The notes beneath the pieces are model-generated. The model was given only the letters and a program-made list of their open reading frames with translations. It did not search any database and had not been told where the DNA came from. Shown piece after piece: positions 5,653 through 57,968 of a stretch of 64,000 nt of DNA (within the stretch, counting starts at the first letter, position 1; the number at the start of each line of letters is the position of its first letter). A program made the translations under genes and the position numbers. Source of the DNA: Clostridium pasteurianum DSM 525 = ATCC 6013 (GTDB lineage Bacteria; Bacillota; Clostridia; Clostridiales; Clostridiaceae). Where the stretch lies: contig NZ_CP009268.1 of NCBI RefSeq assembly GCF_000807255.1, forward strand, positions 1,394,384-1,458,383. Direction: 5' to 3'.

Positions 5653-6403
5653 AATATTCATATGTGAAGATGATGATATACAGAGAAGTAGATTTACTGA
5701 AATAATTGAAGATTTTATAGTAATTAGAAATTTTGATATGGAAGTAGCTTTAGCAGCTAAAAATCCAGAGGATATTATTGATTATTTAAGTAAAAATGAT
5801 ATATCTGGATTATATTTTTTGGACATAGATTTAAGTCATTCTATAAATGGTATTGAGCTGGCTGCTAAAATAAGAGAATATGATCCTAGAGGTTTTATTG
5901 TATTTATAACTACCCATGGGGAAATGGCTCCACTGACCTTTAAATATAAAGTAGAGGCTATGGATTATATAGTAAAGGACAATTATGAAAATTTAAAAGA
6001 TAGCATAAAAAAATGTATAATTGATGCCAATACAAAATATTCAGGTACAATAAATAAACTTCAGAAGAATTTTAATATAAAGATTAATGATAGGATTATA
6101 AATGTGGAATTTAGGAAGATATTATTCTTTGAAACCTCCAGAACTATACATAAGATATTACTTCATGCTGTAGGTAGACAGATTGAATTTTATGCTAAAA
6201 TGAAGGATATTGAGAAGGAATTGGATGAGAGATTCTTTAGGTGTCACAGATCCTATATAGTTAACAGGGACAATATAGAGGAGATTGATGCAAAGAAAAA
6301 AGTTGCTCATATGATAAATGGTGAGAAGTGTCTGGTATCTGCTAGGTCATTGAAGCAAGTTCTTAATTCAGGTGGGGATTTTTTTACCCCATCTGAATTT
6401 TAG
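5645..6403 (+). CDS. agrA: AgrA-like LytTR response regulator with repeat-encoded C-terminal tail
   Basis: A cytoplasmic transcription regulator. The receiver domain (1-125) has acidic residues EDD at 8-10, phospho-acceptor Asp60 in YFLDIDL, and a conserved Lys in IVKD. The LytTR DNA-binding domain (about 140-240) includes FRCHRSYIVNRDNIEEID. Receiver and LytTR spacing match staphylococcal AgrA. The native protein would end soon after SARSLKQ. Here a dispersed repeat begins at 6350 and supplies the last codons, giving the tail [17 protein letters not shown] and the stop codon. The same tail ends two unrelated proteins in this window. Whether the added residues affect DNA binding is unknown. 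Confidence 0.9.
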   Translation: MLKIFICEDDDIQRSRFTEIIEDFIVIRNFDMEVALAAKNPEDIIDYLSKNDISGLYFLDIDLSHSINGIELAAKIREYDPRGFIVFITTHGEMAPLTFKYKVEAMDYIVKDNYENLKDSIKKCIIDANTKYSGTINKLQKNFNIKINDRIINVEFRKILFFETSRTIHKILLHAVGRQIEFYAKMKDIEKELDERFFRCHRSYIVNRDNIEEIDAKKKVAHMINGEKCLVSARSLKQVLNSGGDFFTPSEF

Positions 6404-6447
6404 AACTGCAAATGCATGGCTAACTTGACGTCGAACTTCCCACTTGA
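6350..6447 (+). repeat. Dispersed structured repeat, copy A (3' end of agrA)
   Basis: Begins with TTGAAGCAAGTTCTTAATTC inside agrA. Contains a long hairpin (arms TTCAGGTGGGG and CCCCATCTGAA around a T-rich loop), then GAACTGCAAATGCATGGC and part of the ACTTGGCGT/CTCCCAC segment. It is truncated after CCCACTTGA, losing the 3' half found in copies B, D and F. The first 54 bases are translated as the AgrA tail. Confidence 0.9.
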
Positions 6448-6451
6448 TTTT

Positions 6452-6970
6452 TTATTTAAGTCTTTTTAAATAGTTTTTATTCACATAGGAAATAAACAGA
6501 GTGAGAGCATAGTCATAAAGCAGGAAAACAACCTCCATAGCAATTATTAAAACAGCAACTGGAAATTTTATTGCAGCTATTATGTCTACTACAAATATAA
6601 GTTTGTATATAAGATAGATAACCGCACCACATAGATTTGCAAATATAAGTTTTAATAATATTTCTAAGGGCAGTTTGTTTACTTTTTCTATATAGTATTT
6701 TATGAAACCATAACTTCCAAAGAATATTATATAGGACAATACATTTAATTTTATTCCAAGCAGCAAAAGGGATAATAGTGATGTGGCCGCATAAATAGTT
6801 ATACTGTTTCTGAAATTTGTAGTTATTATGGAAATTGGAATTATGCAGGAAACTATTACAAGAATAAAGAATTTATTTGTAGGTAATATGTTGGAGAGAT
6901 ATATAAACAGCAGAGATAGTGCTGTATATAATCCTCCTTTGGTTATATTACTGGTTCTTGTTTTTGCCAT
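6452..6970 (-). CDS. Conserved multi-spanning membrane protein
   Basis: A 172-residue protein with about five hydrophobic segments and a basic N terminus (MAKTRTSNITKGGLYTALS) resembling small ECF-transporter S-components and other clostridial membrane proteins whose first helix starts with a T-x-x-A-L-x-x-A-like pattern. The match is not firm. It is convergent with agrA, and repeat copy A lies between the stops, only 5 bp from this gene's end. ATG 6970 is the chosen start. A substrate cannot be named. Confidence 0.65.
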   Translation of the reverse strand: MAKTRTSNITKGGLYTALSLLFIYLSNILPTNKFFILVIVSCIIPISIITTNFRNSITIYAATSLLSLLLLGIKLNVLSYIIFFGSYGFIKYYIEKVNKLPLEILLKLIFANLCGAVIYLIYKLIFVVDIIAAIKFPVAVLIIAMEVVFLLYDYALTLFISYVNKNYLKRLK

Positions 6971-7175
6971 AAAATAACCTGGTTAAGAAAAATTGGACAA
7001 ACTTAACCATGCACTCCTTTCTATCTTTATTATATTTTTTATTTCTCCCAACTTTTAAAACATATATACATTATTAAATCTCCATAATAATTTACAAGAT
7101 TTAATTCCATATCTTTTTAATATTTTTCCTTTAATGTATAACTTTGTCTAAGCATTTGATAACTATTTAAAGTTC

Positions 7176-7811
7176 CTAACAGCCTCCGCCCATGCAGTCG
7201 CAAAGCTGATCAGCACACCATATACTTACGCAGATTTTGCAGCAGTCATCTCGGTCATTTCCACCTCTATTGAAATAAGGATCTCTATAGGTATTATTTC
7301 TTTGATTTAGAGCTTGAAAAGCATCTCTATATTCCGGGTTCTGAGGATTAAGGTTATAAGCCATAGTTATATAGGATTGGGCGTTGTCATACCATCCTTT
7401 TCTCATGCACACACTTCCCATAAGAAAATTCCATTCTGCATCTCTGATTTTTACACCAGCCAATTTTTGCTCTGCAGAAGATAAATTACCGTTGTTTATA
7501 TCTACTCTTACAGAATTATATAAGTCAGCATTAGTACCTGAATACTGTGAATTATAATCTTGATTGTAGTTTTGATTACCACTTGTATTGCTATTGTTAT
7601 AACTGCTATTTCTTTTACTGGAATTACTGTTCTTTAAAAGATAATCATAGGCTTCATTTATTTCTCTCATTTTTTCTTCGGCAAGATCCTTTAAAGGGTT
7701 ATTGCCATACTGGTCAGGATGATATTTTTTTGCCAATTCTCTGTAAGCTTTTTTTATTTCTGCTTCAGAAGCACCTTCCTTTATTTCCAGTACTTCATAG
7801 GGATTTCTCAT
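7176..7811 (-). CDS. J-domain (DnaJ-like) protein with cysteine-rich tail
   Basis: Residues 1-62 are a J domain with the HPD motif in KKYHPDQYG (about 31-33) that stimulates Hsp70/DnaK ATPase. A low-complexity Ser/Asn linker follows (about 62-100), then a TPR-like helical segment (about 105-170, including [17 protein letters not shown] and [17 protein letters not shown]). The protein ends with a cysteine-rich tail [17 protein letters not shown]. There is no zinc-finger domain of true DnaJ. A GAGGAGG site precedes ATG 7811. It lies upstream, on the same strand, of the membrane protein at 6452 and near the DUF5685 gene; J-domain and DUF5685 genes often neighbour each other in clostridia as I recall. 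The client is unknown. Confidence 0.9.
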
Positions 7812-7856
7812 GTATTGTTTCCTCCTCGCGTTTCTTGTTAAGTATTAATTATATAA

Positions 7857-8096
7857 ACAGAGTTCTTTGTTTCAGGTGGAGTTTTTTTGTTACGACAGCT
7901 AAAACTTACTAACAGAGTTCTTAGTATCGCTTTGTGATACTTAGAAATCGTTGTCCTTTAGGGTAAATCATTATCCAGGGACGTAGCAACCGTTATCTCC
8001 CACTTTATAGAAAAGTAGAGAACCCAAATTTTAATTTGGTGTGAATCACTGTACAGAGTGCACTGGGAGTATTACGGATGGTAGTCATCGGATAAA
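7857..8096 (+). repeat. Divergent relative of the dispersed structured repeat (H)
   Basis: Non-coding DNA upstream of the J-domain gene. It begins CAGAGTTCTTTGTTTCAGGTGG, like the left end of the main repeat, has a second CAGAGTTCTTAGTATC arm forming a hairpin with GATACTTAGAA (7915-7945), and then shares the core with copies D and F: CTCCCACTT, AGAAAAG, AGAGAACC, a hairpin of AAATTTTAATTT type, GTGTGAATC, CTGTACAGAGTGC and GGGAGTATTACG. The outer stem here is ACCGTTATCTCCCA pairing with TGGGAGTATTACGG, different in sequence from ACTTGGCGT/ACGCCAAGT but at the same place. This looks like compensatory divergence of one RNA or DNA fold. Confidence 0.6.
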
Positions 8097-8328
8097 TTAC
8101 ACATTAAATTTATCTAGATTCAATGAAGAATTAATAAACCTTAGTAATAATGTTTTAAACACACTATAATTAATTTTAACAAATTAATTGTAAAAATACT
8201 ATGTAAGTTGTGTATATTTTTAACTTTTAAATAAATTTGTTCTTTAAACTTTGATATTTGAACTTTTTATTTAATTGATTACTATCAACTTTCCAATAAA
8301 AAACTGCTTATCAATTTTCTAATATGGT
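8097..8328. other. AT-rich intergenic region
   Basis: About 230 bp between the divergent repeat and the stop of the DUF5685 gene. No gene, clear promoter or hairpin terminator was seen in it. Confidence 0.5.
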
Positions 8329-9186
8329 TCATTCTAAAATAAATACTCTATCCATTTTTTCAAGAAGACCAAGTTGTAATATATTATAAAGTATATCTTT
8401 GTTTGTCTTAAGAGGTAATTTATTAAGACATTCAAAGCAGCTTCTTGCACAGGTAACTAATATAAAGTCTATTCTATCCTTAATAAAAATCTTAAATTCT
8501 TTAAAAGGAAGATTATTAGTATTAAAAATGGAAGCTACAGCATTAAATTTACCTTTTTTCATGTCTTCTTCCAAATCATCAAAGGCATCTATTATGTATA
8601 TCCATTTGCCTAGATTGTATCCAAGAGTATAGAGAATATCCTTATGCTCCTTGAGCTTAGGGTAAGAGCTTAGCACAAAGGCAGTAAGTTCGGCAAAGGG
8701 ATGTGAAAGTTCATCTATACTTACTTTTGATTGAGAGTCTTCCAATTTATATAATTCATTTAATTTTTCTCTTATAAAATTACTGTGTACTTTAAGTTTC
8801 TTTGGGAATTTTTTGAAGTAATTCTTTAGAAAAAATGCAGATAAACTACTGACTTTTGATTTATCATCTTTAACATCATCTGTAAGTTTAAAATATGCTA
8901 AAGCTACATTTAAAAAACTGGCATAATCCAAAGCGGAATTATTAATTATAAAATTTTTCTTTTGCAGAGGATGAGCTATGCAATTCCCTGAATGAATTTT
9001 GCAGGGTTCACTTTCCAAAGCATCTAAAAGTATTGCTACAAAAGTCATATCGTAGTTTACTGCCAATCTTGGAATGGTTCCATAGTTCTTTTTTATTGAA
9101 AGGCAGAGACCACAATAATAGGCTTTAAATTTTTCATAGTCTTTTACTTTAAGTTCGCCTTTTAAAGGCAATACATATCCAAACAT
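8329..9186 (-). CDS. DUF5685 family protein with two Asp-rich motifs
   Basis: The N terminus MFGYVLPLKGELKVKDYEK and the CGLC motif (Cys25, Cys28) are typical of the DUF5685 family. Its function is not established. The protein is predicted mostly helical, 285 residues. Two acidic motifs resemble the metal-binding motifs of isoprenoid-synthase-fold enzymes: DDVKDD at 103-108 and DAFDDLEED at 200-208, separated by about 100 residues as in that fold. Further cysteines at 62 and 69 could join CGLC in binding a metal or cluster. AAAAAGGAGTG precedes ATG 9186, though at long spacing. Prenyl-transferase or terpene-cyclase-like chemistry is inference only. Confidence 0.82.
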   Translation of the reverse strand: MFGYVLPLKGELKVKDYEKFKAYYCGLCLSIKKNYGTIPRLAVNYDMTFVAILLDALESEPCKIHSGNCIAHPLQKKNFIINNSALDYASFLNVALAYFKLTDDVKDDKSKVSSLSAFFLKNYFKKFPKKLKVHSNFIREKLNELYKLEDSQSKVSIDELSHPFAELTAFVLSSYPKLKEHKDILYTLGYNLGKWIYIIDAFDDLEEDMKKGKFNAVASIFNTNNLPFKEFKIFIKDRIDFILVTCARSCFECLNKLPLKTNKDILYNILQLGLLEKMDRVFILE

Positions 9187-9324
9187 TATGAAGTTTTAGC
9201 ACTCCTTTTTAATAAAATTTTCAATTGAAAGTTAATAATATATAGAGATATAACTTAAAATATAAGTTTAAAATTCATTTATAATTATATACATTAATAT
9301 CTATAATTAAATATTAACATTATA

Positions 9325-9861
9325 TTATTTTGAATATTCTTTAATTAATTGGTATATGGTTTTTGAAGTAGTATCTTCCATACTGTATCCCAAAAGATTC
9401 ACCACTTCTTCCAATTCCTTTTCATTATCAGTTTCTATTTCAATATAGGGGAAAGGACAAAAAGATTTATCGTTTATATCTATTTCAATGAGAGTATTTT
9501 TATATCTGTAGCTTTCTCGGGATTTTTTTATGCTGCTTTTAAGTATAAGTCCAAGAGATAAAAATATATTACTGCCTGCAGCAGCATCGCTTATTATTAC
9601 TTCATTTTCTTCCATTACTTTATATTTTTCCTGACTTATAAGTTTCTTTGTAGTCATATAATAACGAGTTTCACTTTTTAGTAGATCTTCTACAATTCTT
9701 ATTCGGGCATAGCCTTTATTTTTTAAAAGTCTATTATCTGGAAAATCATACAAGTTATTTATTTGGTTTTCTAGTTTTACTTTTTCAGCATTTATATTCT
9801 TTAATTTAGATCTTATTTCAGATATATTTATATGAGTTATTTTAGTTTCTATTTCCTTCAA
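9325..9861 (-). CDS. CYTH domain protein
   Basis: CYTH proteins bind triphosphate compounds in a beta tunnel and include thiamine triphosphatases and class IV adenylate cyclases. Visible signatures are the N-terminal EIETK (ExExK), RIRI, TTKK, a basic RESYRYKNTLIEID segment and YIEIET near the C terminus. I place the start at TTG 9861, giving a protein that begins with the ExExK motif, because AGAGGTG sits 6 bases upstream; the longer frame to 9888 has no ribosome site. It is a single-gene unit with AT-rich flanks. The actual substrate is unknown. Confidence 0.85.
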   Translation of the reverse strand: MKEIETKITHINISEIRSKLKNINAEKVKLENQINNLYDFPDNRLLKNKGYARIRIVEDLLKSETRYYMTTKKLISQEKYKVMEENEVIISDAAAGSNIFLSLGLILKSSIKKSRESYRYKNTLIEIDINDKSFCPFPYIEIETDNEKELEEVVNLLGYSMEDTTSKTIYQLIKEYSK

Positions 9862-10129
9862 GAAATTCACCTCTTTAGTTTTAAACAATTAATTATGCTA
9901 AATAATATTTATAGATATTATAACATAGTGTAGTTATATAAATAAGAAGGTATGCTAAATATATAATAATTAAAATATACAATTAAAAACATAATTATAT
10001 ATATTAATAGTAAAGAAGTTTGATCTGTTCATTGATTATTAAAAAAGCCGTGATTATTATAAGTTCAGATTAAAAGTCTAATATGTTATAATTAAAATAT
10101 ATTCAAATATTAGGGGGGGACAGAAAAAT

Positions 10130-10624
10130 ATGGACAATTTTTATGAACAATTTGTGGGACGAAAAGATAGCAAATTTTATAATTTTATTAATGTTTTGGT
10201 ATATGGTTTTTGTATTATAGCTTTGCTTTTCTTTGCTATAGCAAAGGTCTTTGCTTTTATTGTATTCCTTATCATTGGATCCGGAATTTTTTTAGCCAAG
10301 AAAAAACTATATACTGAATACGAATATAGTTTTACTAATGGAGAAATAGATATTGATAAAATAACTGACAGGAGTAATAGAAAATCAGTAGCTAATTTTA
10401 ACATAAATGATATTGAAATTATGGCAAAGGCAGATAGTGATATTATAAAGAATGGTAATTTTAGTTACGAGAAAGAACTTAATTTTTATGTTAATCACAA
10501 TAAGGGTGCTGTATACAGCATATATGTTGCCTGTAATAAAGGAAAGTTAAAGATAAATTTTGTACCAGATAAAGAATTTGTGGATTTGTGTTATTTACTT
10601 AATCCTAGAAAAGTAAATAAGTAG
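10130..10624 (+). CDS. DUF6106-like two-helix membrane protein
   Basis: A 164-residue protein starting MDNFYEQFVGRK, followed by two membrane helices (about 20-38 and 40-56) and a soluble C-terminal domain of mixed beta content with YEYSFTNGEIDIDKI. This pattern matches the DUF6106 family as I know it; no function is established. The G-rich ribosome site GGGGGGGA lies at 10112-10119, an unusually long G run. The gene stands alone. Confidence 0.75.
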   Translation: MDNFYEQFVGRKDSKFYNFINVLVYGFCIIALLFFAIAKVFAFIVFLIIGSGIFLAKKKLYTEYEYSFTNGEIDIDKITDRSNRKSVANFNINDIEIMAKADSDIIKNGNFSYEKELNFYVNHNKGAVYSIYVACNKGKLKINFVPDKEFVDLCYLLNPRKVNK

Positions 10625-10714
10625 GCTGTTAAATAAGCATTAAATGCAATAATTTAAAATGAAAATAAAAATGATTGTTTTACTTGATAAAAATTCCTTT
10701 AATAAAGTATAATT

Positions 10715-10748
10715 AGTTCTTGGTGTCTAAAGTAAGATACTGAGAACT
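10715..10748. other. Hairpin upstream of the NdpA-like gene
   Basis: Imperfect inverted repeat AGTTCTTGGTGTCT / AGATACTGAGAACT with a six-base loop. There is no T run after it. It resembles the AGTTCTTAGTATC / GATACTTAGAA hairpin of the divergent repeat at 7915-7945, so it may be a short relative of that family or an operator. Confidence 0.5.
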
Positions 10749-10826
10749 ATATTTGTTCAAGAACTATAATAATTGTTATTCATACTTAAATAAAATTTTA
10801 ACTTAAAATATTTGGAGGTAAAAAGT

Positions 10827-11864
10827 TTGGAGTACGTTAGTGAGGTAAATCTGAATGAAGCTATTATTCACATTCTGGATAATAATGCGGAGGAACCAGT
10901 ATATAATGAATATATACTGGAACTTTCAGATGAAACTTATGAATATATATTGAAACATATACAGAAATCTCTTAAGGATGAGGAATTAAAATATGCAGTG
11001 TTTAACAAAGATAGAAATATTGTCAAGGAACTTTCTCAGGAATATCTAAGTGGTCAGGGAGATTTTATAGCCATATCAAAGGAAATTTCAAAACAGCTTT
11101 TTATATTGATGAAGTCTAATGGTAATATACCTTCTTGTGATTTAATTGTAGTATCTATTTCCACGGAATTTGGACCTATGCTGGCAATTTTAAAAATGGA
11201 TTATATCAAAAATTATACCCATAATGTAGATTTTTTAGAAGATAAAATAGGTATAAGTATAGTACCTCAATTTATAGGTCTTCCTTCAGGGGGACAGAGA
11301 CTGCAAAAATGTGCCTTTATAAAGCTTATTTCTGAGGAAAATAAATTTGATTTAATGGTTATAGACAAGCAAAGCAAGAGTAAAGAGGGAGAGGATTATG
11401 GTTCAAATTATTTTATAAGTAATTTTTTGGGTTGTTCTATAATTGAAAATGAAAGAGATATTACTCGTAATTTTATTAAAAATGCTGAAAAGTGGACAAG
11501 AGATAATTTAAAAGATAATGCAGAAACCGCCGAAGTTGTAAGATCCTCATTGAAAAGAAAGCTCAAGCAGGAAGATAAAATTGATATTAATGAATTTTCA
11601 AAGGATGTCTTTGGAGAAAGCAGGGATGCAGCTGAAAATTTTGTTCAATATATAAAAGATCAGGGAGTAAATGATCAGATAGAAGTAGACAAACAATGGG
11701 TAGAGAATAAGTTAAAGAGAGTAAGGCTTAAGCTGGATAAGGATATTGATATTTATATAAATGAGGAAACCTATGATGACAGTTCCAGATTTGAAATTGT
11801 TAGAAATGGCGATGGAACTATAAACATGGTTATTAAGCATATTAAGAATTATATAGAGAAGTAA
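10827..11864 (+). CDS. Nucleoid-associated protein, NdpA/YejK family
   Basis: The protein matches the NA37/NdpA family of nucleoid-associated proteins, with the N-terminal pattern NLNEAIIHILDNNAEEPVY and a conserved central region around IVVSISTEFGPMLAILKMDY. Function in bacteria is poorly defined beyond DNA association. The start is taken as TTG 10827, because GGAGGT at 10814-10819 lies 7 bases upstream. An in-frame TTG at 10812 overlaps that ribosome site and is less likely. Length is about 345 residues, usual for Gram-positive members. The C-terminal third is highly charged. Confidence 0.85.
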   Translation: MEYVSEVNLNEAIIHILDNNAEEPVYNEYILELSDETYEYILKHIQKSLKDEELKYAVFNKDRNIVKELSQEYLSGQGDFIAISKEISKQLFILMKSNGNIPSCDLIVVSISTEFGPMLAILKMDYIKNYTHNVDFLEDKIGISIVPQFIGLPSGGQRLQKCAFIKLISEENKFDLMVIDKQSKSKEGEDYGSNYFISNFLGCSIIENERDITRNFIKNAEKWTRDNLKDNAETAEVVRSSLKRKLKQEDKIDINEFSKDVFGESRDAAENFVQYIKDQGVNDQIEVDKQWVENKLKRVRLKLDKDIDIYINEETYDDSSRFEIVRNGDGTINMVIKHIKNYIEK

Positions 11865-11945
11865 AGAATCCCTAATTCTTAATTCTTAATTTTTAACTTT
11901 CCACTTTTCACTATCAACTTTCAACTGAAAAAAAGGGGTGATAAT

Positions 11946-13073: not shown

Positions 13074-13078
13074 AAAAA

Positions 13079-13121
13079 TGTCTCACAATGTATGGCTATA
13101 CACATTGTGAGACATTTTTTT
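13079..13121. terminator. Bidirectional terminator between patB and fba
   Basis: Perfect 13-bp stem TGTCTCACAATGT / ACATTGTGAGACA with A tract before and T tract after. It serves the convergent genes on both strands. Confidence 0.92.
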
Positions 13122-13129
13122 ATTTTAAA

Positions 13130-15299: not shown

Positions 15300-15440
15300 A
15301 GATTTTTACTGCTTCGATGTACTCTGCCTTGCCGAGGCTACTACAGTTTGTATAGCACTCCACAGTCGTTAATTCCCCAAATAGCCTTGGGTACACATAT
15401 AAGTGCTTGTTTAATTAAGCTATCTTATATTTTTTAGCAT
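15300..15440 (-). ncRNA. Candidate omega RNA / right end of the IS607-type element
   Basis: Immediately 3' of tnpB and overlapping its last codons on the minus strand is a non-coding segment with several hairpins, such as CCCAAGG..TTTGGGG and GCCTCGGCAAGGC. TnpB effector RNAs are made from exactly this region, with the guide taken from DNA flanking the element. Here the flank is the start of the DUF421 gene. The precise element end and RNA boundaries were not determined; the assignment follows from position and family knowledge. Confidence 0.55.
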
Positions 15441-16587
15441 TAGCTAAATTTATTGAAGCATTTAAATCTCTATCTATTGAAGTGTTACAATTATCACATT
15501 TATATATCCTATCAGATAGTTTTAAATCCTTTTTAGTATATCCACAACAACTACAAATTTTACTACTTGCATAAAATCTATCGGCTAATCTTATTTCAAT
15601 ATCATTATGTTTAGCTTTAGAAATAAGATTAGTTCTAAATTCATAGAATTTTTGTTGTGATACAGCTTTAGCTAAATGTCTGTTCTTCATCATTCCTTTA
15701 ATATTTAAATCTTCAATTGTTATAAAGCTTGGTTTTTGCTTTACTATCTCATTTACCGTCTTATTCACATAGTCGGTTCTTATATTTCCAAGTTTTTGAT
15801 GAAGTTTTTGTACCTTAACTACTTGCTTTTGGATATTTTGACGAGCAGCTTCTCCTTTCTCTTTTTTATTTCTTAATTTTAAACTTTCATATTTTCTTGA
15901 AAGCTTTCTTTGTTCACGTTTTAACTTCTTTTCTAATCTTTTAACTTTTTTTGTCTTATTAATATTTTTCTTAGTTACACCATTACTGCATATAGCAAAA
16001 TCTCTAAGTCCAACATCAATACCTATACCTTTAGAAAATGCTTTATCATTTACTTTAATTTCTTCTTCAACTAATATTGAAACATAATACCTATCTGATT
16101 TTTGACTTATTGTACCACTTTTAACCATTGAATTTACTGGGATATAACCAAATTCTTTAAATCTAACCCATCCTAATGTTGGCACTTTAACTCTATGTCT
16201 TTCAATTGTCCAATCTGTTTTATTGTTTTTAGGAAAGTACGATTTTACGTCTTGTTTTTTCTTCTTCTTGAATTTAGGAAATCTGCTTTGGCCCTTAAAA
16301 AACTTTTTAAAGGCTTTCTCACCATTCATAATAGCTTGTTTTGTAGCTTTGGAAGATACTTCTTTAATCCAAACTTTGTCTTGATTATTAGGGACATACT
16401 CATTGTTAAGCCATTTAGAAAAGTCTATGCCACTAACAAACTTCTCTTCTTTTTCATAAACTTCTTTATTACGAGCAATGTAAAAATTATATATAAACCT
16501 GCTTACACCAATAGTTTGATGAATTTTTTGTTTTTGTTCATTAGTTGGTTTAATCTCTATTTTGTATGCTTTTTTCAACTTCTTCAT
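15415..16587 (-). CDS. tnpB: TnpB RNA-guided nuclease of an IS607-type element
   Basis: A 390-residue transposon-encoded nuclease. The RuvC catalytic triad is intact by motif: Asp191 in GIGIDVGLRDFAI, Glu292 in ITIEDLNIKGM and Asp374 in DRDLNASINLANA. The zinc-binding pairs are Cys345/Cys348 and Cys364/Cys367. The N-terminal KAYKIEIKPTNEQKQKIHQT is the usual start of the family. A long basic coiled segment spans 205-265. The partner tnpA upstream is broken, so the element should not move by itself, but the nuclease looks functional. The start is ATG 16587. It lies on the minus strand between the DUF421 gene and the serine dehydratase genes. Confidence 0.93.
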   Translation of the reverse strand: MKKLKKAYKIEIKPTNEQKQKIHQTIGVSRFIYNFYIARNKEVYEKEEKFVSGIDFSKWLNNEYVPNNQDKVWIKEVSSKATKQAIMNGEKAFKKFFKGQSRFPKFKKKKKQDVKSYFPKNNKTDWTIERHRVKVPTLGWVRFKEFGYIPVNSMVKSGTISQKSDRYYVSILVEEEIKVNDKAFSKGIGIDVGLRDFAICSNGVTKKNINKTKKVKRLEKKLKREQRKLSRKYESLKLRNKKEKGEAARQNIQKQVVKVQKLHQKLGNIRTDYVNKTVNEIVKQKPSFITIEDLNIKGMMKNRHLAKAVSQQKFYEFRTNLISKAKHNDIEIRLADRFYASSKICSCCGYTKKDLKLSDRIYKCDNCNTSIDRDLNASINLANAKKYKIA

Positions 16588-17147: not shown

Positions 17148-17282
17148 TTGAAGCAAGTTCTTAATTCAGGTGGGGATTCTTTTACCCCACCTGAATTTTA
17201 GAACTGCAAATGCATGGCTTACTTGGCGTCGAACTCCCACTTGAAGAACTGGGAGACTTACGCCAAGTTAGTCAGGTGAAAA
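17148..17282 (+). repeat. Dispersed structured repeat, copy B (compact full-length)
   Basis: The shortest copy with both ends. Left end TTGAAGCAAGTTCTTAATTC, hairpin GGTGGGG/CCCCACC, GAACTGCAAATGCATGGC, then ACTTGGCGT..CTCCCAC pairing with GGGAG..ACGCCAAGT, and right end AGTTAGTCAGGTGAAAA. The internal module found in D and F is absent. It lies in the gap before sdaAB, and its right end is 33 bp from that gene. Confidence 0.9.
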
Positions 17283-21429: not shown

Positions 21430-21602
21430 GTAATTAGGCATGTGAAAATAAATAGTAAGTCAAAGATGCGACGAATATTTTGAATCTAACAAGGAAGTAG
21501 GTTCCGAGGATAGTGGGCTATCTGAGGGTTCTGCTGACGTAGTAGGATTCAAAATAGGCTAGCATACTGACTAGTTATTTATTTGAATATGCCTTAGTAT
21601 AG
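21430..21602 (+). ncRNA. ssrS: Long rod-shaped RNA, candidate 6S RNA
   Basis: No reading frame is present. The sequence folds end to end: AGGCAT (21436) pairs with ATGCCT (21589), AAATAAATA..AGTCA with TGACTAGTTATTTATTT, then a large open bubble (AAGATGCGACGAATA opposite TAGGCTAGCATAC), then TTTTGAATC with GATTCAAAA, and an apical arm AGTAGGTTCC with GGGTTCTGCT capped by GATAG/CTATC. A closing stem, a central bubble and an interrupted apical stem of about 170 nt is the architecture of 6S RNA. TATAAT at 21413-21418 is a plausible -10. Sequence identity to known 6S RNA was not tested, so another structured RNA is possible. Confidence 0.6.
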
Positions 21603-25634: not shown

Positions 25635-25713
25635 TTGAAGCAAGTTCTTAATTCAGGTGGGAATTCTTTTATCCCATCTGAATTTTAGAACTTCAAATGT
25701 ATGGCTTACTTGG
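25635..25713 (+). repeat. Dispersed structured repeat, copy C (truncated)
   Basis: Left end TTGAAGCAAGTTCTTAATTC and first hairpin (GGTGGGA / TCCCATC), GAACTTCAAATGTATGGC, ending at ACTTGG. It lacks everything 3' of that. It begins right after the histidine kinase stop and ends a few bases before the stop of the convergent Fe-S/FMN protein gene. Confidence 0.88.
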
Positions 25714-32043: not shown

Positions 32044-32069
32044 ATTATGGATAATATAAATAGATTTTT

Positions 32070-32208
32070 TAATTAACGGGGGGGTATATCCCGGTTAAGT
32101 TTAGATAAATTAGCTAAAAAGTCATTATTGTCGGCTGCATTTACTGAAGATGCAGCCCTGCAATGAATAATTATAGTAAAAACTGCTTTTGTGAAAGCAG
32201 TTTTTTTA
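32070..32208 (+). promoter_or_regulatory. Structured leader with terminator upstream of queG
   Basis: After its own promoter the leader has a G-rich hairpin CGGGGGGGTATATCCCG (32077-32093), the A-rich TTTAGATAAATTAGCTAAAAAG, a perfect hairpin GGCTGCAT/ATGCAGCC (32133-32157), and an intrinsic terminator AACTGCTTT/AAAGCAGTT plus seven T (32180-32207), 45 bp before the queG start. This is the layout of a riboswitch or attenuator. A preQ1-sensing element would suit a queuosine gene, but the sequence does not clearly match the preQ1-I pattern, so the class is unassigned. Confidence 0.55.
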
Positions 32209-41621: not shown

Positions 41622-42368
41622 ATGGAAAGATTAGATAAGATATTGGCTAATTCTGGATATGGTTCTAGAAAAGATGTGAAAAAGTTAATTAAAAGTGGTC
41701 TCATAGAAGTAGACGGAAAAAAAGTAAAATCATCTAATATACAAGTAGATGTAAAAGAAAATAATATAACTGTTAAGGGAGAGACTCTGATATATAAAAA
41801 GCATATTTACTTAATGATGAATAAGCCTGCTGGAGTAGTTTCTGCTACTTTTGACAATTATGATGAGACTGTGATAGATCTTCTTGAAGAATATCATGCT
41901 TCATTTAATCCTTTTCCTGTAGGAAGACTTGATAAGGATACTGTAGGACTCCTTATTTTAACCAATGATGGTGATTTAAATCATAAAATGATTTCACCTA
42001 AGTGGCATGTGAATAAGGTATACTATGCAGAAATTGATAAAGTTGTTGACGAAGAGGATATAAGGGCTTTTGAAGATGGAATAGAGATAGATGATGGATA
42101 TAAGTGCATGCCTGCAAAACTTGATATACTTAATGTAGATTCCAATGGCTCTAGAGTTATGGTAACTATTCAGGAAGGAAAATTTCATCAGGTTAAACGA
42201 ATGTTTTTAGCAAGAAATAAAAAAGTTGTATATTTAAAGAGAGTTAGTTTTGGTAGAATTCATTTAGATGAAAGTATAAAAGAAGGAGACTATAGAGAAC
42301 TAACTGAAGGAGAATTGAAGCAAGTTCTTAATTCAGGTGGGGATTCTTTTACCCCATCTGAATTTTAG
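41622..42368 (+). CDS. rluB: RsuA/RluB-family pseudouridine synthase with repeat-encoded tail
   Basis: An rRNA pseudouridine synthase. The N-terminal S4 RNA-binding domain (1-48) has RLDKILANSGYGSRKDVKKL, and the catalytic motif GRLDKDTVGLLILTNDGDL carries Asp104. Whether it is RluB, RsuA or RluF type is not fixed; the length fits small-subunit or 16S types as well. The last 17 residues [17 protein letters not shown] and the stop come from repeat copy D, which starts at 42315. The native protein would have ended near TEGELK. The tail matches those of AgrA and RdgB in this window. Confidence 0.9.
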   Translation: MERLDKILANSGYGSRKDVKKLIKSGLIEVDGKKVKSSNIQVDVKENNITVKGETLIYKKHIYLMMNKPAGVVSATFDNYDETVIDLLEEYHASFNPFPVGRLDKDTVGLLILTNDGDLNHKMISPKWHVNKVYYAEIDKVVDEEDIRAFEDGIEIDDGYKCMPAKLDILNVDSNGSRVMVTIQEGKFHQVKRMFLARNKKVVYLKRVSFGRIHLDESIKEGDYRELTEGELKQVLNSGGDSFTPSEF

Positions 42369-42553
42369 AACTGCAAATGCATGACTTACTTGGCGTTGAA
42401 CTTCCACTTGAAGAAAAGCAGACAAAACAAAATTTATTTTGTATTTGGTCGCTTTCGCAGCGTGCAAGCAGAGAACCAAAATCTTGTTTTTGATTTTGTG
42501 TGAATCGCTGTATAGAGTGCGAGGGAGACTTACGCTAAGTTAGTCAGGTGAAA
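42315..42553 (+). repeat. Dispersed structured repeat, copy D (longest, with internal module)
   Basis: Full-length copy. It shares left end and first hairpin with the others, ACTTGGCGT and CTTCCAC pairing with GAGGGAG and ACGCTAAGT, and right end AGTCAGGTGAAAA. Between the stem arms it has an added module: hairpin ACAAAACAAAAT/ATTTTGTATTTGGT, CGCTTTCGCAGCG, then AGAGAACCAAAATC..GATTTTGTGTGAATCGC as in F and H. Its first 54 bases are read as the tail of the pseudouridine synthase. Confidence 0.92.
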
Positions 42554-47987: not shown

Positions 47988-48083
47988 TTGAAGCAAGTTC
48001 TTAATTCAGGTGAAGATTCTTTTACCCCATCTGAATTTTAGAACTGCAAATGCATGGCTTACTTGGCGTAAGTCAGGTTAAAA
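47988..48083 (+). repeat. Dispersed structured repeat, copy E (3' deleted)
   Basis: Left end, first hairpin (GGTGAAG / CCCCATC, here mispaired) and GAACTGCAAATGCATGGC are intact. The rest of the copy runs ACTTGGCGTAAGTCAGGTTAAAA, joining the ACTTGGCGT arm straight to the right end. This looks like a deletion between the two arms of the second stem. Confidence 0.88.
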
Positions 48084-50273: not shown

Positions 50274-50287
50274 GGAAGGTGAATAAA

Positions 50288-51718: not shown

Positions 51719-51753
51719 TTAAAAAATAATAAAATTTAATATAATATACTAAA

Positions 51754-51800
51754 AAGTCCTGAGAATAAGATTTATAAAAATTTTCAGGACTATTTTTGTC
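51754..51800 (+). terminator. Terminator after gatB
   Basis: Stem AGTCCTGA / TCAGGACT with a long loop followed by ATTTTTG. Confidence 0.82.
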
Positions 51801-51917
51801 TGCTTTTCTATAAGGTGGGAATAGCAGCTACAGGTTCCTGGATAATTCATCTAAAAAATTGTTTACTATAGGCAATAAATGTTAATAATCATTAATATGA
51901 TATGTTTTAGTTATGAA

Positions 51918-51945
51918 TTTCACCTGAATTAAGAGCTTGCTTCAA
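51918..51945 (-). repeat. Solo end of the dispersed repeat (G)
   Basis: On the minus strand this reads TTGAAGCAAGCTCTTAATTC then AGGTGAAA. The first 25 bases are the left end of the main repeat, and AGGTGAAA matches the right end. The whole interior is absent. It is the only copy in this orientation and lies about 45 bp upstream of the next gene. Confidence 0.8.
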
Positions 51946-51992
51946 ATGTGCTATTAAATCAATTAAAAATATGTTTATAAGGGTACGTGTGT

Positions 51993-53633
51993 ATGAAAAT
52001 TTTAAAGAGATATTTAAGTATAATTTTGATTATCATCATAATTTCAATAATATTTTCTGGATGTGTAGAAAAAAAAGAGGATATAAATACAATTAATCAA
52101 AATAATAGATATTTAATGTACGATATAGGAAGTTTGCCAGAGGATTTAAGCAAGACAGATATGGATGTTTTAAGAGTTAGAGATATTGAGAGAGTGTTAT
52201 TTCAAGGATTAGTATATGAAAAGGAAAATAGCAAGGATGGTATAGGTTATGCACTAGCAAAAAGCTGTGATATTTCAAAGGATGGACTTGTATATACCTT
52301 TGCATTAAAAGATAATATAAAATGGAATGATGGCAGCCCTATTACAGCTCAGGACTTTGTAGATTTTTTTAAAGATATATTGTCACAGGATTATGATAGT
52401 GTATACAGGTATGAGCTCAAATGTATTTATGGAGTTTCGGATTTTATAGATCATAATAAGGACTTTTCAGCAGTTGCCATTACGGCACCGAAAGATAATA
52501 TACTTCAAATAAGATTGAACTATCCAAGTCCACATTTTTTACAATTATTAACTCAGCCTATGTATGGTCTTAGAAAAATTGATAGTAATATTATAAATTG
52601 GAAAAAGAATTATAAATATATAAAGTATTCAGGAGCCTTTTTCATTAAAAATATAGAAGGCAATGGTAATATACTTTTAAATAAAAATAAGAATTATGTA
52701 TTTAAGAGTGACGTTAAAAGTAATCAGATTGTACTGACTACAAATAAAAATGGAAGTGCATATTCCTTGGCTGATTTTGAAACTTATAACAATTTGGATA
52801 TATTCTTGAATCCACCTTCAACAGAGGTAGATAGATTAAAATCTAAAGGAGAAGCTGCTATTTTTCCAAAGCTTTCGGTTAAAGGATTATTTTTTAATTT
52901 TAATAGCAATACTGCAGTTTCAAATTATAATTTTAGAAAAGCCGTGCAGTTATCTATGGATAGAAATGAATTAATAGATAATGTAGTAGGGGATTATGGG
53001 GAAGCTTTGACATCATATTTACCTAGAGAAATGAACTCTTCACCAATAGATAACAGTAAAGTTGATAATTACAATAAAAGTGAAGCCTTAAAATATTTTA
53101 AAGAGAGCAATTATAATAAAAATAATGTAATAAGATTTGTATATGTGGATAATGATACCAATAAAAAAGTATGCGAGAATATTATTAAGATGATAAATTA
53201 TACTATATCTAATGAAGGAAGTAACAGTGATACGGGAGCAATAGGTAATGTGAAATTTCAACTTAAAGGTTATAGCTTAAAGGATATAAATGAAGTTATA
53301 AAGAATAATAATTATGATATGTATTTAGGTGATTACAATATAAATTATAATAATATTATGTCCTTTCTAGAAATATGGAAGTCTAATTCTCCTTATAATA
53401 TATATGGATTTAAAGATATTGCCTATGATGATCTAATATATACTGGAAATGTTGCTGAAGACTTAAATAAAAAATATGAGGTATATAATAAATGTATAGA
53501 GGAATTAAAAAATAGAATACCTGTAATTCCTCTATATTCTAAAAATACTATAGCATGTTCTAAAACCTCTGTACAGAGCTTAAATTTAAATGAATTTGGG
53601 AATGTGTTAATAGAAAAGCTTCAGGAAAAATAG
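51993..53633 (+). CDS. Oligopeptide-type ABC transporter substrate-binding lipoprotein
   Basis: An extracytoplasmic solute-binding protein of family 5 (OppA/DppA type). The signal peptide has a lipobox FSGC at the end of a long hydrophobic stretch, so the Cys near residue 24 should be lipidated and anchor the protein to the membrane. Family motifs are SKDGLVYTFALKDNIKWNDG and TAQDFVDFF. The C terminus is PVIPLYSKNTIACS. No permease or ATPase genes are adjacent, so it must work with components elsewhere or act as a peptide receptor. I use ATG 51993; GTG 51987 is an alternative. The ribosome site is weak. Confidence 0.88.
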   Translation: MKILKRYLSIILIIIIISIIFSGCVEKKEDINTINQNNRYLMYDIGSLPEDLSKTDMDVLRVRDIERVLFQGLVYEKENSKDGIGYALAKSCDISKDGLVYTFALKDNIKWNDGSPITAQDFVDFFKDILSQDYDSVYRYELKCIYGVSDFIDHNKDFSAVAITAPKDNILQIRLNYPSPHFLQLLTQPMYGLRKIDSNIINWKKNYKYIKYSGAFFIKNIEGNGNILLNKNKNYVFKSDVKSNQIVLTTNKNGSAYSLADFETYNNLDIFLNPPSTEVDRLKSKGEAAIFPKLSVKGLFFNFNSNTAVSNYNFRKAVQLSMDRNELIDNVVGDYGEALTSYLPREMNSSPIDNSKVDNYNKSEALKYFKESNYNKNNVIRFVYVDNDTNKKVCENIIKMINYTISNEGSNSDTGAIGNVKFQLKGYSLKDINEVIKNNNYDMYLGDYNINYNNIMSFLEIWKSNSPYNIYGFKDIAYDDLIYTGNVAEDLNKKYEVYNKCIEELKNRIPVIPLYSKNTIACSKTSVQSLNLNEFGNVLIEKLQEK

Positions 53634-53645
53634 ATTAATAAGTAA

Positions 53646-53702
53646 TAAAAGAGCTGCGTTACACTGCATTTTTATGCAATACAGCGTAGCCTCTTTTATA
53701 TA
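53646..53702. terminator. Bidirectional terminator
   Basis: Arms AAAGAGCTGCGTTACACTGC and GCAATACAGCGTAGCCTCTTTT (shown by their ends) form an imperfect 18-bp stem. It lies between convergent genes. Confidence 0.75.
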
Positions 53703-53783
53703 ATAAGTGAATATTGTCTAAATTTTTTATTAGTTTTATTAGAGATATCTATGTTATGAAAATAGGATACTCAAAAGATTATA

Positions 53784-55355
53784 CTAAGAAGTTTTTAAAT
53801 TAGAATTATTTTCCTTTGGCATATTGTTGTTCTTAGTATGCTTATTTTTATTGTTTTTGTTATGATGAGAATTGTTATTTTCATTAAATTTAACATATTG
53901 TTTATTAGAATTTTTAGAAGATGTTTTAGAACTATATTTAATGGATTCTTCTTTAGATGATCTAACTGAAGCTATTTTATAAGTAGGTTTAAAAAGATAT
54001 ATAAATAAAAAGAATAAAAACATGTTTTGATTACTGTAAAAGCTATTTTTAGATTTAGTAAAGGTATTCTTTTTTTTATTATAAGTTATAGATTTTAAAA
54101 ATACAGGGGCTGTTTCTGAGGTTTCCGGTGTTGGTATAGTAGGCATTTTAAAGTTCTGTTCATTCAACAAATCTTCGGAATTAAGAGAAAAATTTTTATA
54201 TCTTTCAGGATTGCCTAAACTAGGAACATCAGGCCAGCTGTTAATAATTCCAGATTCAATAATTTGACGTTTAAATATGTTAGAAATAATATTATCATTT
54301 TCATCCTCAGCAGAAGATACTAATGTACTTACAACATACAATAGTATTTCTTCAGAACTATAGTTTGTTTCCTTTTTATCTTTATCTTTTACAAATATAT
54401 GATTTTCAGAATTATATGTTTGCTTAAGCCTTTCCAAAATTTCTCTAACATTCTTTTTGTAATTAAAAAATCCGGTATGTTTATATATAAGTGATGAGTT
54501 TATACAGCATAGACATTGTATATTTATGTCTGGAGTTTCTTCCTCATCCTCTGCTTTAGATTCTAGTTTTTCTAATACATAATCATATAAATCCAGAAGA
54601 AGAGCTAGAGAACTTTTATTACGAGAGTAATCATAAAATACATTTAAAGCTAAACAAACCTTTAAAATTTCTTCTGAAGATAAATTATATATATCCCCTT
54701 TGTATCCCTCAAGCATATTTAATATATCTAATGAAAAATTCTTAAATTGGATGGAATCTTTATCATTAGAAAGCTGAGAACAGCTGTAAAAAGCAGACAT
54801 TAATAATGCTTGATCTGAAAAATTGAATTTAGAAGACTTTTCTTCAAGTTTTAATTCAGAATCAGATGAATCAGATATATCTTTTTTATCTACAAAAACA
54901 CCCTCAAAATTTCTAAGATTGGTTGCATAGAATTCCAATTGTTTTCTTCCAAGCTCTGTGTATATAGAGCCTAAATTCGATTTATCTGAATGAATAGTTT
55001 CAAGGCCTCTATAATATTTAGATAATTCAAGTATAGATAATGTCATAAAGGCATTGCTGGATATGGGTATTTCTCTCTTAAATTTGTCTTCCATCCATCT
55101 TGCTTTGTTATCGGAAAATTCCAGTTCACAATCTCCTTTTTTATATACACATAAAAGTGGAGAAAATGAATTAAATGTGCTAATATCATTATTGGGAATA
55201 ATTTTGTGCCTAAATTCTTTAGTATAAGTTGAGATACCAAATTTAGAATAAAACACAATTATTTTTTCACTTTCTTTAGCAAGGTGAAACAATTGATTTT
55301 TTATATTTTCTTTATTTAAAGAATTAATTTTTAAAAATGGTCCTATATATCTCAA
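53784..55355 (-). CDS. Hypothetical protein with helical repeats and basic disordered tail
   Basis: I do not recognise the family. The protein of about 523 residues is acidic and helical through most of its length, with patterns such as SNAFMTLSILELSKYYRGLE and ALLMSAFYSCSQLSN that recall alpha/alpha-toroid repeats. One hydrophobic segment (MFLFFLFIYLFKPTY) lies near residue 450. The last about 65 residues are a Lys/Asn/Ser/His-rich disordered tail. TTG 55355 is chosen, because GGCGGTG lies 6 bases upstream; GTG 55364 is the alternative. It is convergent with the lipoprotein gene and divergent from the AIR-synthase-like gene. Similar genes in other clostridia seem likely. Confidence 0.75.
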   Translation of the reverse strand: MRYIGPFLKINSLNKENIKNQLFHLAKESEKIIVFYSKFGISTYTKEFRHKIIPNNDISTFNSFSPLLCVYKKGDCELEFSDNKARWMEDKFKREIPISSNAFMTLSILELSKYYRGLETIHSDKSNLGSIYTELGRKQLEFYATNLRNFEGVFVDKKDISDSSDSELKLEEKSSKFNFSDQALLMSAFYSCSQLSNDKDSIQFKNFSLDILNMLEGYKGDIYNLSSEEILKVCLALNVFYDYSRNKSSLALLLDLYDYVLEKLESKAEDEEETPDINIQCLCCINSSLIYKHTGFFNYKKNVREILERLKQTYNSENHIFVKDKDKKETNYSSEEILLYVVSTLVSSAEDENDNIISNIFKRQIIESGIINSWPDVPSLGNPERYKNFSLNSEDLLNEQNFKMPTIPTPETSETAPVFLKSITYNKKKNTFTKSKNSFYSNQNMFLFFLFIYLFKPTYKIASVRSSKEESIKYSSKTSSKNSNKQYVKFNENNNSHHNKNNKNKHTKNNNMPKENNSNLKTS

Positions 55356-55443
55356 AATAAACACCGCCTAAAAGTAATCCTATATAGCATTATATGAAAT
55401 ACTGATTATGATTGTGTATATTTTTTTAGAAAGGAAGATTTTT

Positions 55444-56424
55444 ATGAAGGTTGGAAAGCTGGATTCTTATGAATTGCAGAAGATAATCGATAACAATAGA
55501 GGAATAAAGAGAGAAGACGTAAGAATTAGAGGGGGCATTGGTGAAGATTGCAGTGTTATAGAATTTGGAGACTTTGAATGTGTAGTATCTACAGATCCCA
55601 TAACTGGAGCGGAAAAGGGACTTGGGAAACTTGCAGTACACATTAATTGTAATGATATTGCTTCTGCTGGAGTTGAACCTCTAGGAATACTTGTAACTAT
55701 AATGGCTCCAGAAAGTTCAACACTTATAGATATAAAGAATGTTATGGAGGAAATAAGTGAAGAGTGCAAAAAACTAAATTTAGAGATACTAGGGGGACAT
55801 ACAGAAGTAACTAGTGCTGTAAATAGAATGATAGTATCCTGTACAGTTTTAGGAAAGGGAAGGAAAAATTCTTCTGTATCTACAGCTGATGCAAAGCCTG
55901 GAGATGATATAATTATCACTAAAAAACTTGGAATGGAAGGTACTTTTATAGCTGTAAGTCATAAAGAAGATGAATTAATAAATATACTTACAGAGGAAGA
56001 AATAAAAGAGGCTAGAGGTTATATAGAAAGTATAAGTGTAGTAGATGAGGGAAGAATTTGCGGAAGAGCTGGAGTCAACAGTATGCATGACATAACAGAA
56101 GGTGGAGTTTTAGGAGCACTTTGGGAAGTGTCTAAAGCCAGTAATTGTGGCTTTAAAATTTGTTATGATTTTATGCCTATAAGTGAAGTAACCAGAAAAG
56201 TGTGCAAGAAATTTAATATAGATCCTTTAAGATTTATATCTTCAGGAAGTATGCTTGTAACTTGTAAAGATGGAAATAAATTGGTGGATTTATTGAAGAA
56301 AAACAACATAGAATCTGTAATAATTGGCAATATTACTGAGGATAAAAATATCATTATAAAAGATGGAAAAGAGGAAGAAGTTGATCCTCCAGATAGTGAT
56401 GAATTATTTAAAATAATGAAATAA
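55444..56424 (+). CDS. AIR synthase-related (PurM/HypE-fold) protein
   Basis: An ATP-binding PurM-fold protein of about 326 residues. N-terminal GGIGEDCSVIEFGD and VSTDPITGAEKGLGKLAVHI, then NCNDIASAGVEPLG and GGHTEVT, are the AIRS motifs; MHDITEGGVLGALWEVSK is the C-terminal domain hallmark. The family includes HypE, SelD, PurM and ThiL, but hydrogenase or selenium genes are not nearby and there is no C-terminal PRICA-like HypE tail, so a specific reaction is not assigned. ATG 55444 follows GAAAGGAAG. It lies just upstream of rph and rdgB. Confidence 0.88.
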   Translation: MKVGKLDSYELQKIIDNNRGIKREDVRIRGGIGEDCSVIEFGDFECVVSTDPITGAEKGLGKLAVHINCNDIASAGVEPLGILVTIMAPESSTLIDIKNVMEEISEECKKLNLEILGGHTEVTSAVNRMIVSCTVLGKGRKNSSVSTADAKPGDDIIITKKLGMEGTFIAVSHKEDELINILTEEEIKEARGYIESISVVDEGRICGRAGVNSMHDITEGGVLGALWEVSKASNCGFKICYDFMPISEVTRKVCKKFNIDPLRFISSGSMLVTCKDGNKLVDLLKKNNIESVIIGNITEDKNIIIKDGKEEEVDPPDSDELFKIMK

Positions 56425-56459
56425 CAGATTAATTGACAACTGATATTGTGGAGGTTTTT

Positions 56460-57209
56460 ATGCGTTTTGACGGAAGGAAATTTGATCAAATAAGACCAGT
56501 TAATATAGTAAGAAACTATACTAAATATGCTGATGGATCAGTATATATTGAGGTAGGAGATACTAAGGTTATATGTAATGTTTCTATTGAGGAAAAGGTA
56601 CCTTTGTTTTTAAGAGGTAAAGGAGAAGGATGGATTACCTGTGAGTACAGTATGCTGCCAAGGGCAACTCAAATTCGTAAAATGAGAGATATAACTAAGG
56701 GGAAAATAGATGGAAGAACTGTGGAGATACAGAGGCTTATAGGGCGAACTTTAAGGTCTGTGGTGGATCTTAAGGCTCTTGGAGAAAAGACACTTTGGGT
56801 TGATTGTGATGTTATTCAGGCAGATGGAGGTACTAGAACTACAGCTATTACAGGGGCTTTTATAGCTATAGTAGAAGCGATTAATAAATTACATAAAAAA
56901 AAGGATTTTAAGATTTATCCTATAAGAAAATATTTAAGTGCTGTAAGTGTTGGAATAGTAAACAATGAAAAACTTTTAGATTTGTGTTATGAAGAAGATT
57001 CCAATGCTCAGGTAGATATGAATATCATAATGACTGATGATGGACAGTTCGTGGAGATACAGGGGACTGGAGAGCAGAATCCCTTTTCAAGAAAAGATAT
57101 GAATGAATTAATTGATTTAGCTGAAATTGGTGTAAAGAAAATGATTCAAATACAAAAACGAAGTTTAAAAAACGATGCACTTTGGATTGGAACAGGAGGG
57201 GAAATATAA
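56460..57209 (+). CDS. rph: Ribonuclease PH
   Basis: Phosphorolytic 3'-5' exoribonuclease trimming tRNA ends. The family N terminus [14 protein letters not shown], the RNA-binding [10 protein letters not shown] and the phosphate-binding [12 protein letters not shown] are seen. Length about 249 residues is standard. The perfect ribosome site TGGAGG fixes ATG 56460. It is 4 bp before rdgB, as in most Firmicutes. A dense tRNA array starts 1.4 kb downstream. Confidence 0.96.
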
Positions 57210-57212
57210 AAT

Positions 57213-57833
57213 ATGAATAAACTTATAGTTGCAAGCAATAATCAAGGTAAAATAAAAGAAATAAAAGAAATTCTTAAGAACTTTCAATTAGAAGTATTTT
57301 CATTAAAAGATCTCCAGATAGATATTGATGTAGTAGAAGATGGCAGCACTTTTATGGAAAATGCCTATAAAAAAGCTAAAGAAATATATAATATTACTAA
57401 AGGTTATATGGTACTTGCGGATGATTCAGGGCTCATGGTAGATGCTTTAAATGGAGCTCCTGGAGTATTATCCGCAAGATTTTCAGGAGAACATGGAAAT
57501 GATGAAAAGAACAATGAAAAATTAATTAGTATGTTAAAGGGAAAAGGTAAAGGAGATAGAAAGGCAAGATTTGTATGTGCCTTAGTACTTATCATGGATA
57601 ATTATGAAGAAATTAAGGTACAGGAGCAGGTAGAGGGGATTATACTTGAAGATAGGAGGGGAAAAGATGGATTTGGATATGATCCATTGTTTTACATACC
57701 TGAAATAAAAAAAACTTTTGCCGAAATGACTAGCAGCGAAAAAAATAGTATAAGTCATAGAGGAAGAGCATTAAATCAGTTGAAGCAAGTTCTTAATTCA
57801 GGTGGGTATTCTTTTACGCCATCTGAATTTTAG
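57213..57833 (+). CDS. rdgB: XTP/dITP diphosphatase (RdgB/HAM1) with repeat-encoded tail
   Basis: Hydrolyses non-canonical purine triphosphates such as dITP and XTP. Motifs [38 protein letters not shown] and [20 protein letters not shown] are conserved. The family usually ends shortly after SHRGRAL. Here the C terminus [17 protein letters not shown] and the stop codon come from repeat copy F, which starts at 57780. The tail is the same as in AgrA and the pseudouridine synthase, with two changes. AGGAGGGG lies upstream of ATG 57213. A phosphodiesterase gene follows. Confidence 0.95.
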
Positions 57834-57968
57834 AACTACAAATGCATGGTTTACTTGGCGTCGAACTCCCACTTGAAGAAAAGCAGAGAACCAAAATCTT
57901 TTTTTGATTTTGTGTGAGGGCTGTACAGAGTGCGTGGGAGACTTACGCCAAGTTAGTCAGGTGAAAAT
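57780..57968 (+). repeat. Dispersed structured repeat, copy F (full-length)
   Basis: Left end, first hairpin, ACTTGGCGT..CTCCCAC and the matching GTGGGAG..ACGCCAAGT arms, and right end AGTCAGGTGAAAA are all present. The internal module is shorter than in D: GAAGAAAAGCAGAGAACC, hairpin AAAATC/GATTTTG, CTGTACAGAGTGC. The first 54 bases encode the RdgB tail. Confidence 0.92.

Follow-up and report, generated by a model that had tools for sequence, protein, structure and literature searches.

A high-copy, modular double-hairpin repeat of Clostridium pasteurianum, probably mobile, that supplies stop codons at gene ends

The genome of Clostridium pasteurianum DSM 525 contains a dispersed structured repeat, here called F1, which was followed up from the copies described by an initial annotation of a 64-kb window (positions 1,394,384 to 1,458,383 of the 4.35-Mb contig NZ_CP009268.1; the window is this whole stretch of DNA). 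F1 is very probably a high-copy, non-coding and modular mobile repeat that belongs to a larger superfamily, is inserted at AT-rich motifs and is moved in trans. Some proteins of this bacterium end in the same short tail encoded by the repeat; this shared tail is an incidental side effect of a mobile repeat landing at gene ends.

The six plus-strand copies of the initial annotation were recovered, as exact matches to the 20-base left end TTGAAGCAAGTTCTTAATTC stand at 6350, 17148, 25635, 42315, 47988 and 57780, where 0.02 matches are expected from shuffles. The statement that all copies lie on the plus strand is only locally true, since a seventh left end with one mismatch lies on the minus strand of the window (51945 to 51926), and the 136 left ends of the genome (25-mer, up to 3 mismatches; reversed control 0) are divided into 71 on the plus and 65 on the minus strand. 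Right ends and middles number 131 each (controls 0). The copy set used below holds at least 144 copies joined from the matches listed in several searches, so that diverged copies may be missed, and all counts of copies refer to those listed. Two weak chance matches (314244 and 1125049) were dropped, which reduced an earlier set from 115 to 113 and the final set from 146 to 144.

The F1 unit is a double hairpin of about 134 nt, which has no terminal inverted repeats when both ends are compared by eye; it begins with (A)TTGAAG and finishes with TKAAA. Copy lengths differ by multiples of about 53 nt, according to how many inner modules, from zero to four, occupy the apical loop of the second hairpin. 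These modules are of three main types, about 53 nt each, arranged in tandem and themselves hairpins. Among the 114 copies that have left, middle and right anchors, 44, 26, 37, 5 and 2 fall into the length classes of zero, one, two, three and four modules, respectively, and the mean pairwise identity of 22 copies having no module is 89.5%. Incomplete copies are also common. For example, nine short forms of 28 nt have the left arm joined to the right end, as expected from deletion between TCAGGT repeats, and 11 copies have no left anchor (by eye, TTTTAGAAC is the start of six, two begin deeper and three have a partial first hairpin).

The initial annotation held that the repeat supplies, in frame, the C-terminus and stop codon of three unrelated proteins, and this was borne out. 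The open reading frames (ORFs) ending at 6403, 42368 and 57833 finish with LKQVLNSGG…SEF, and their TAG is nt 52-54 of the repeat. Family searches uphold the gene labels at family level, namely an RsuA/RluB-type pseudouridine synthase, RdgB/Ham1 and a LytTR response regulator, the best match of the last being AgrA under the cut-off of that model. The two copies said to begin shortly after a stop codon (25635 and 47988) were likewise found as described. The left end of F1 carries a stop in each forward frame within 54 nt (TGA at nt 2-4, TAA at 15-17 and TAG at 52-54), and hence translation of a gene stops inside any copy that has inserted among its final codons. With ORFs called mechanically at 80 aa or more, 23 of the 133 copies with an intact left end give a stop to an upstream ORF of the same strand. 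The three frames are used about equally, with 9 stops at TGA (no residue added), 7 at TAA (EASS added) and 7 at TAG (the shared tail, with small variations); p for equal use is 0.84, and the earlier set of 113 copies gave 7/6/6. The right end contains the stop of an antisense ORF in 12 of 127 copies (7/3/2). By the same simple ORF calling, none of the 144 copies lies inside an ORF, and the flanking genes relative to the element are ++ in 49, -- in 50, -+ in 23 and +- in 22. The counts of frames, flanks and in-ORF copies are those to be expected if insertion is random and copies in gene bodies are then purged. The likeness of the native protein ends to the Leu-Lys start of the tail, which the initial annotation had noticed, is present; its reading as selection gives way to a simpler account, because the element begins with TTGAA and lands at TTNAA-like sites, which read Leu-Lys in that frame.

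Empty sites were read through synteny with four genomes of the same genus. In all four, the element is absent from rdgB and from the rsuA/rluB-type gene. The old end of rdgB, TATAAATTAAAAAATCAGTTATAA (Y-K-L-K-N-Q-L and stop, read from DNA), still follows the element, its counterpart in the compared genome G003 being …AAATTGGAGGAAGAGTTATAG. Similarly, the old end of the synthase gene, ATTTTAAAAGAAATTTGA (I-L-K-E-I and stop, read from DNA), still stands after its copy and corresponds to …CTAAAAGAAATTTAA in G003. With diverged flanks aligned by eye, the insertion points in G003 read TTAAA (rluB), TTTAA (47988) and TTTAAA (51945). The base before the element is A in 99 of 133 F1 copies (p 2e-19 against an assumed 36%), and at positions -2 to -15 A is found in 28 to 41 of 93 copies.

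One junction could be read at base resolution. In genome G216, a copy of the related family F3 (locus L291) splits a tnpB gene, and the paralogue at L282 is 96-98% identical in the flanks. The empty site reads …ATTATTG-ATAA-ATGGTATCC… and the occupied one …ATTATTG-ATAAAGG…CGGACAA-ATGGTATCC…, so that the single ATAA of the empty site appears once on each side of the element, the right one changed to ACAA; three more tnpB paralogues have ATAA at the same point. F1 shows a like pattern at its ends (TTGAA and TKAAA), and any other repeat of at least 5 bases is common to both sides in 3 of 93 F1 copies at most. Beside these sites, L287 of the related genome G391 has the same right junction inside tnpB as L291, and its left side is not tnpB, so that this copy is rearranged or truncated. 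In the relative G252, an F2-like element (L273) starts exactly at the TAA stop of tnpB, the stop being supplied or shared by the element.

That the repeat is structured, as first described, is supported by folding and by covariation. A complete F1 copy folds into two adjacent hairpins with a folding z of about -9, as RNA or DNA and on either strand. A model (R1) made from a 36-sequence F1 alignment, in which 14 sequences came from other genomes and 22 were own copies taken from 43 distinct short ones, matched 31 of 206 family genomes, the source genome included, and drew in the diverged families F2 (ATAAACAGAGTTCTT…GGATAA) and F3 (ATAAAGTGAAACTT…GGATAA), the ends of which are mostly ATAAA and GGATAA. 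In a 32-sequence alignment of F1, F2 and F3, 94.3% of the cells pair, two-sided changes are seen in 22 of the 31 pairs (RNAalifold counts 21), and slid versions of the alignment bring the pairing down to 34-51%. There are 59 G-T pairs against 14 C-A mismatches on the written strand, a ratio that tilts towards that strand since the structure was predicted on it.

The superfamily extends over the Firmicutes. A model R2 (E of 1e-5 or lower) matched 41 of 398 genomes and 34 of 267 genera drawn evenly from the phylum; the 41 genomes include the source genome and one that gave a training sequence, and 19 of them have at least 8 scored places. The GC of 28 printed loci from other genomes ranges from 31 to 55%. 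The exact 20-mer of F1 is also present in Candidatus Formimonas warabiya, Sporotomaculum syntrophicum, Desulfoscipio geothermicus bins and another Bacillota bin (36 stretches), and when 11 longer copies from outside were compared with the own ones, the best identity was 91%. This reflects either transfer of the family between classes or a common factor that constrains its sequence. The exact 20-mer was not found in IMG/VR viral contigs, phage records gave no match for F1 and F3, and plasmid records none for F1, F2 and F3. The window copies had no Rfam 15 match at the gathering score; at looser limits, one F1 copy matched only chance microRNA models (E 0.95 and 2.3), and the F2 and F3 copies of seven loci matched none. 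Locus L174 of the same comparison had a match to Rfam GABA3 in its F1 region, with E 7e-5 and below the gathering score. No description of the repeat was found in the literature searched, including searches with short sequence strings. Stem-loop families of C. perfringens and C. tetani, known here by description, are listed in PMC2267715. A covarying structured repeat is thus present in about one tenth of the sampled genomes of the phylum, often in many copies, with neither an Rfam match nor a found description. In Formimonas, smaller hairpin modules of the GACGC…GCGTG and GAAGC…ACAGAG types are nested in F1 at fixed points (L081, L086, L089, L090, L093 and L094), and another repeat (…GGGGACATTCC…) fills the second-hairpin loop of several copies.

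The explanation that best fits these observations is as follows. The repeat inserts at new sites, at short AT-rich motifs that are TTNAA-like for F1 and ATAA for the F3-type copy read at base resolution; the empty site has the motif once, and the inserted element has it on either side. A copy in the last codons of a gene ends the protein, with one frame of three giving LKQVLNSGG…SEF. The element would be non-autonomous, its movement depending on an enzyme that acts in trans and recognises the strand in its folded form. Copies in useful genes would be purged, which would leave the intergenic and gene-end copies, and modules may be gained or lost by slippage or by nested insertion at the hairpins. 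A wider proposal can be made only tentatively: F1, F2, F3 and others might form a phylum-wide superfamily of double-hairpin elements of about 130 nt, unrelated to the known miniature inverted-repeat transposable elements (MITEs) derived from insertion sequences (IS) and to the known repetitive extragenic palindromic (REP) sequences. The folded single strand, DNA or RNA, might be moved in trans at ATAA or TTNAA-like sites by an enzyme that has so far been connected with no repeat and may belong to the host's core set, and the second hairpin might serve as a landing pad for tandem smaller hairpin modules.

Several points weigh against the proposed insertion and movement in trans. Only three of the five compared window sites show TTNAA in G003, the others reading CTAAA (rdgB) and ATTTTAA (the F2 copy at 7853), again with diverged flanks aligned by eye. 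Orthologues of agrA gave no match on the gene side in the relatives, and the site in G003 that matches window 17148 holds a different repeat, a collapsed copy of the MITE-like repeat mentioned below. The motif that flanks the element may have arisen by duplication of a target of fixed sequence, or the element may carry it. Gene-body insertion does occur, as in tnpB of G216. The evidence for mobility consists of empty sites between species and between paralogues, rather than strain polymorphism. Movement in trans is inferred because no ORF-bearing copy was found among those examined and the ends are linked to no transposase. None of 500 shuffles attained any of five covariation measures, and these shuffles ignore sequence relatedness. 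Lastly, copies of like orientation cluster along the chromosome (53 runs against 72.7 when the 144 copies are shuffled, p 0.0009). F1 density peaks at 0.5-1.5 Mb, a figure biased by the use of listed matches, the runs less so.

Among the candidate movers, a Y1 transposase is the foremost, and even so a doubtful one. F1 would then be a non-autonomous form (a palindrome-associated transposable element, PATE, or a REP pair) of IS200/IS605 or of a REP-associated tyrosine transposase (RAYT), with the enzyme acting at the two hairpins, beside a fixed target motif, to cut and join the folded single strand. The hairpins beside both ends, the lack of terminal inverted repeats and the short fixed motif found once in the empty site, which suits a retained left target, agree with such a mover, and Y1 genes are present in 18 of the 24 element-bearing genomes chosen. 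However, the remaining six gave no match at E 0.001, and five of these are at least 98% complete, though drafts can miss genes. None of the six Y1 matches of the source genome has an element end beside it (a weak 3-error string in L102 was taken as chance), and neither a GTAG nor a CGTC tag is present at the element ends. In ten genomes, 25 TnpB loci were found, and R2 matches (E of 1e-6 or lower) adjoin three of these, namely L273, which looks like an insertion at the tnpB stop, L291, inside tnpB, and L287, which abuts the same tnpB point. The IS605 TnpB ends or guide RNA were rejected as the parent of the element, as two of the three adjoining loci, when read closely, are insertions at or in tnpB.

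A DDE-type transposase duplicating a fixed AT-rich target of 4-5 bases is an unlikely source. It would account for the single base-level junction, where the empty site has one ATAA and the element is flanked by it on either side, with a mutation in one of them, as well as for the similar F1 ends. Against it, no terminal inverted repeats are seen by eye, and the left end of F1 hardly varies, in contrast to the right end (70 TTAAA, 54 TGAAA and 3 other of 127); a true duplication would not leave such a difference. Spread through an RNA copy, with a group II intron or another reverse transcriptase acting in trans, has about as little to commend it. The strong single-strand structure with compensatory changes speaks for an RNA stage, as do at least 8 copies that lack the 5' part and keep the right end; six copies lack the 3' part instead, and there is no run of A past the first base after the right end.

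More improbable still is a cis-acting RNA element (a 3' untranslated region, a terminator or a regulator) kept by selection. The very stable fold, the covariation and the many copies near gene ends would suit it, but the orientation to flanking genes is balanced, lengths and modules vary, and relatives have empty sites at rdgB and rluB; a role as 3' untranslated region or terminator was rejected as the main cause for want of an orientation bias. That the tail is a selected protein feature, such as a degron or a targeting tag, is scarcely credible: a search for it elsewhere found seven ORFs of the genome, three of them in the window, that end in the tail or a close form, but it was rejected on the equal use of frames, two of which give no tail or EASS, and it is missing from RdgB and the synthase of relatives.

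Table 1. F1 copies and related elements in the window, with the genes that they touch
Element	Positions	Strand	Relation to genes
F1, left end and first hairpin intact, right part lost; 3' limit by eye	6350..6447	+	last 17 residues and TAG of agrA-like ORF 5645-6403
Related family F2 (ATAAACAGAG…CGGATAA), nested hairpin module and F1-kind inner module	7853..8095	+	
F1, complete, no inner module, 134 nt	17148..17281	+	
F1, right part lost; 3' limit by eye	25635..25712	+	begins 3 bp past stop of histidine kinase gene
Weak match to pan-family model, E 1.4e-5	32056..32180	+	
F1, complete, two inner modules, 239 nt	42315..42553	+	end and TAG of rsuA/rluB-type gene 41622-42368
F1, second hairpin collapsed, 95 nt	47988..48082	+	32 bp past a stop
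F1 short form, 28 nt, left arm fused to right end	51918..51945	-	
F1, complete, one inner module, 187 nt	57780..57966	+	end and TAG of rdgB 57213-57833; old rdgB end just downstream

Other features of the window were also observed. A different, MITE-like repeat of about 165 nt with imperfect terminal inverted repeats lies at 21432-21597; it has no Rfam match, and tens of copies are listed at about 85-96% in the source genome and G003 and at about 76-80% in G002. The Rfam family RAGATH-18 matches 15306-15366 (minus strand), after tnpB 15415-16587 (minus strand). It is found about 50 nt past the stop at all five TnpB matches of the source genome and at none of eight scanned TnpB loci elsewhere, and here it appears to be the end, or the guide RNA, of these IS605-type elements. 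Twenty tRNA matches are clustered at 58573-60550, with duplicated blocks.

The repeat ends proteins, separates genes and hosts other repeats, and it offers a clean system for studying how elements that have neither inverted repeats nor a cognate transposase gene spread across bacterial classes. MITEs are likewise short, non-coding and present in many copies, have no transposase inside and are presumably moved in trans; F1 differs from them in having no terminal inverted repeat, by direct reading of both ends. In the Rickettsia palindromic elements, a repeat is read as protein inside unrelated genes through in-frame internal insertions, whereas F1 touches gene ends. REP and REPIN sequences with their RAYT, as described in PMC3733652, resemble F1 in being intergenic hairpins, often past genes and some inside genes. 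However, F1 has no GTAG or CGTC tag and is far longer than the 20-40 bp given there; no RAYT is flanked by F1 in the source genome, and several element-bearing genomes have no Y1 match.

The closest known system, in design and consequence, is the BOX repeats of Streptococcus pneumoniae and S. suis. According to the account of these repeats (PMC3049150), they have the order boxA-boxBn-boxC, about 125 copies per genome and an RNA-like fold, with terminal inverted repeats and target duplications, and are reported in few streptococci. The same account has 36 genes of one pneumococcal genome ending in BOX repeats; the supply of stop codons by a repeat is not new, and the initial annotation's view that a protein tail from a repeat is unusual is not supported. 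Judged by the features given in that account, BOX and F1 are alike in their fixed end modules with variable inner modules, similar copy number, RNA-like fold and supply of stop codons. F1 is not filed as BOX because it lacks the inverted repeats reported there. Its superfamily is also phylum-wide, and the two are set apart by their described features.

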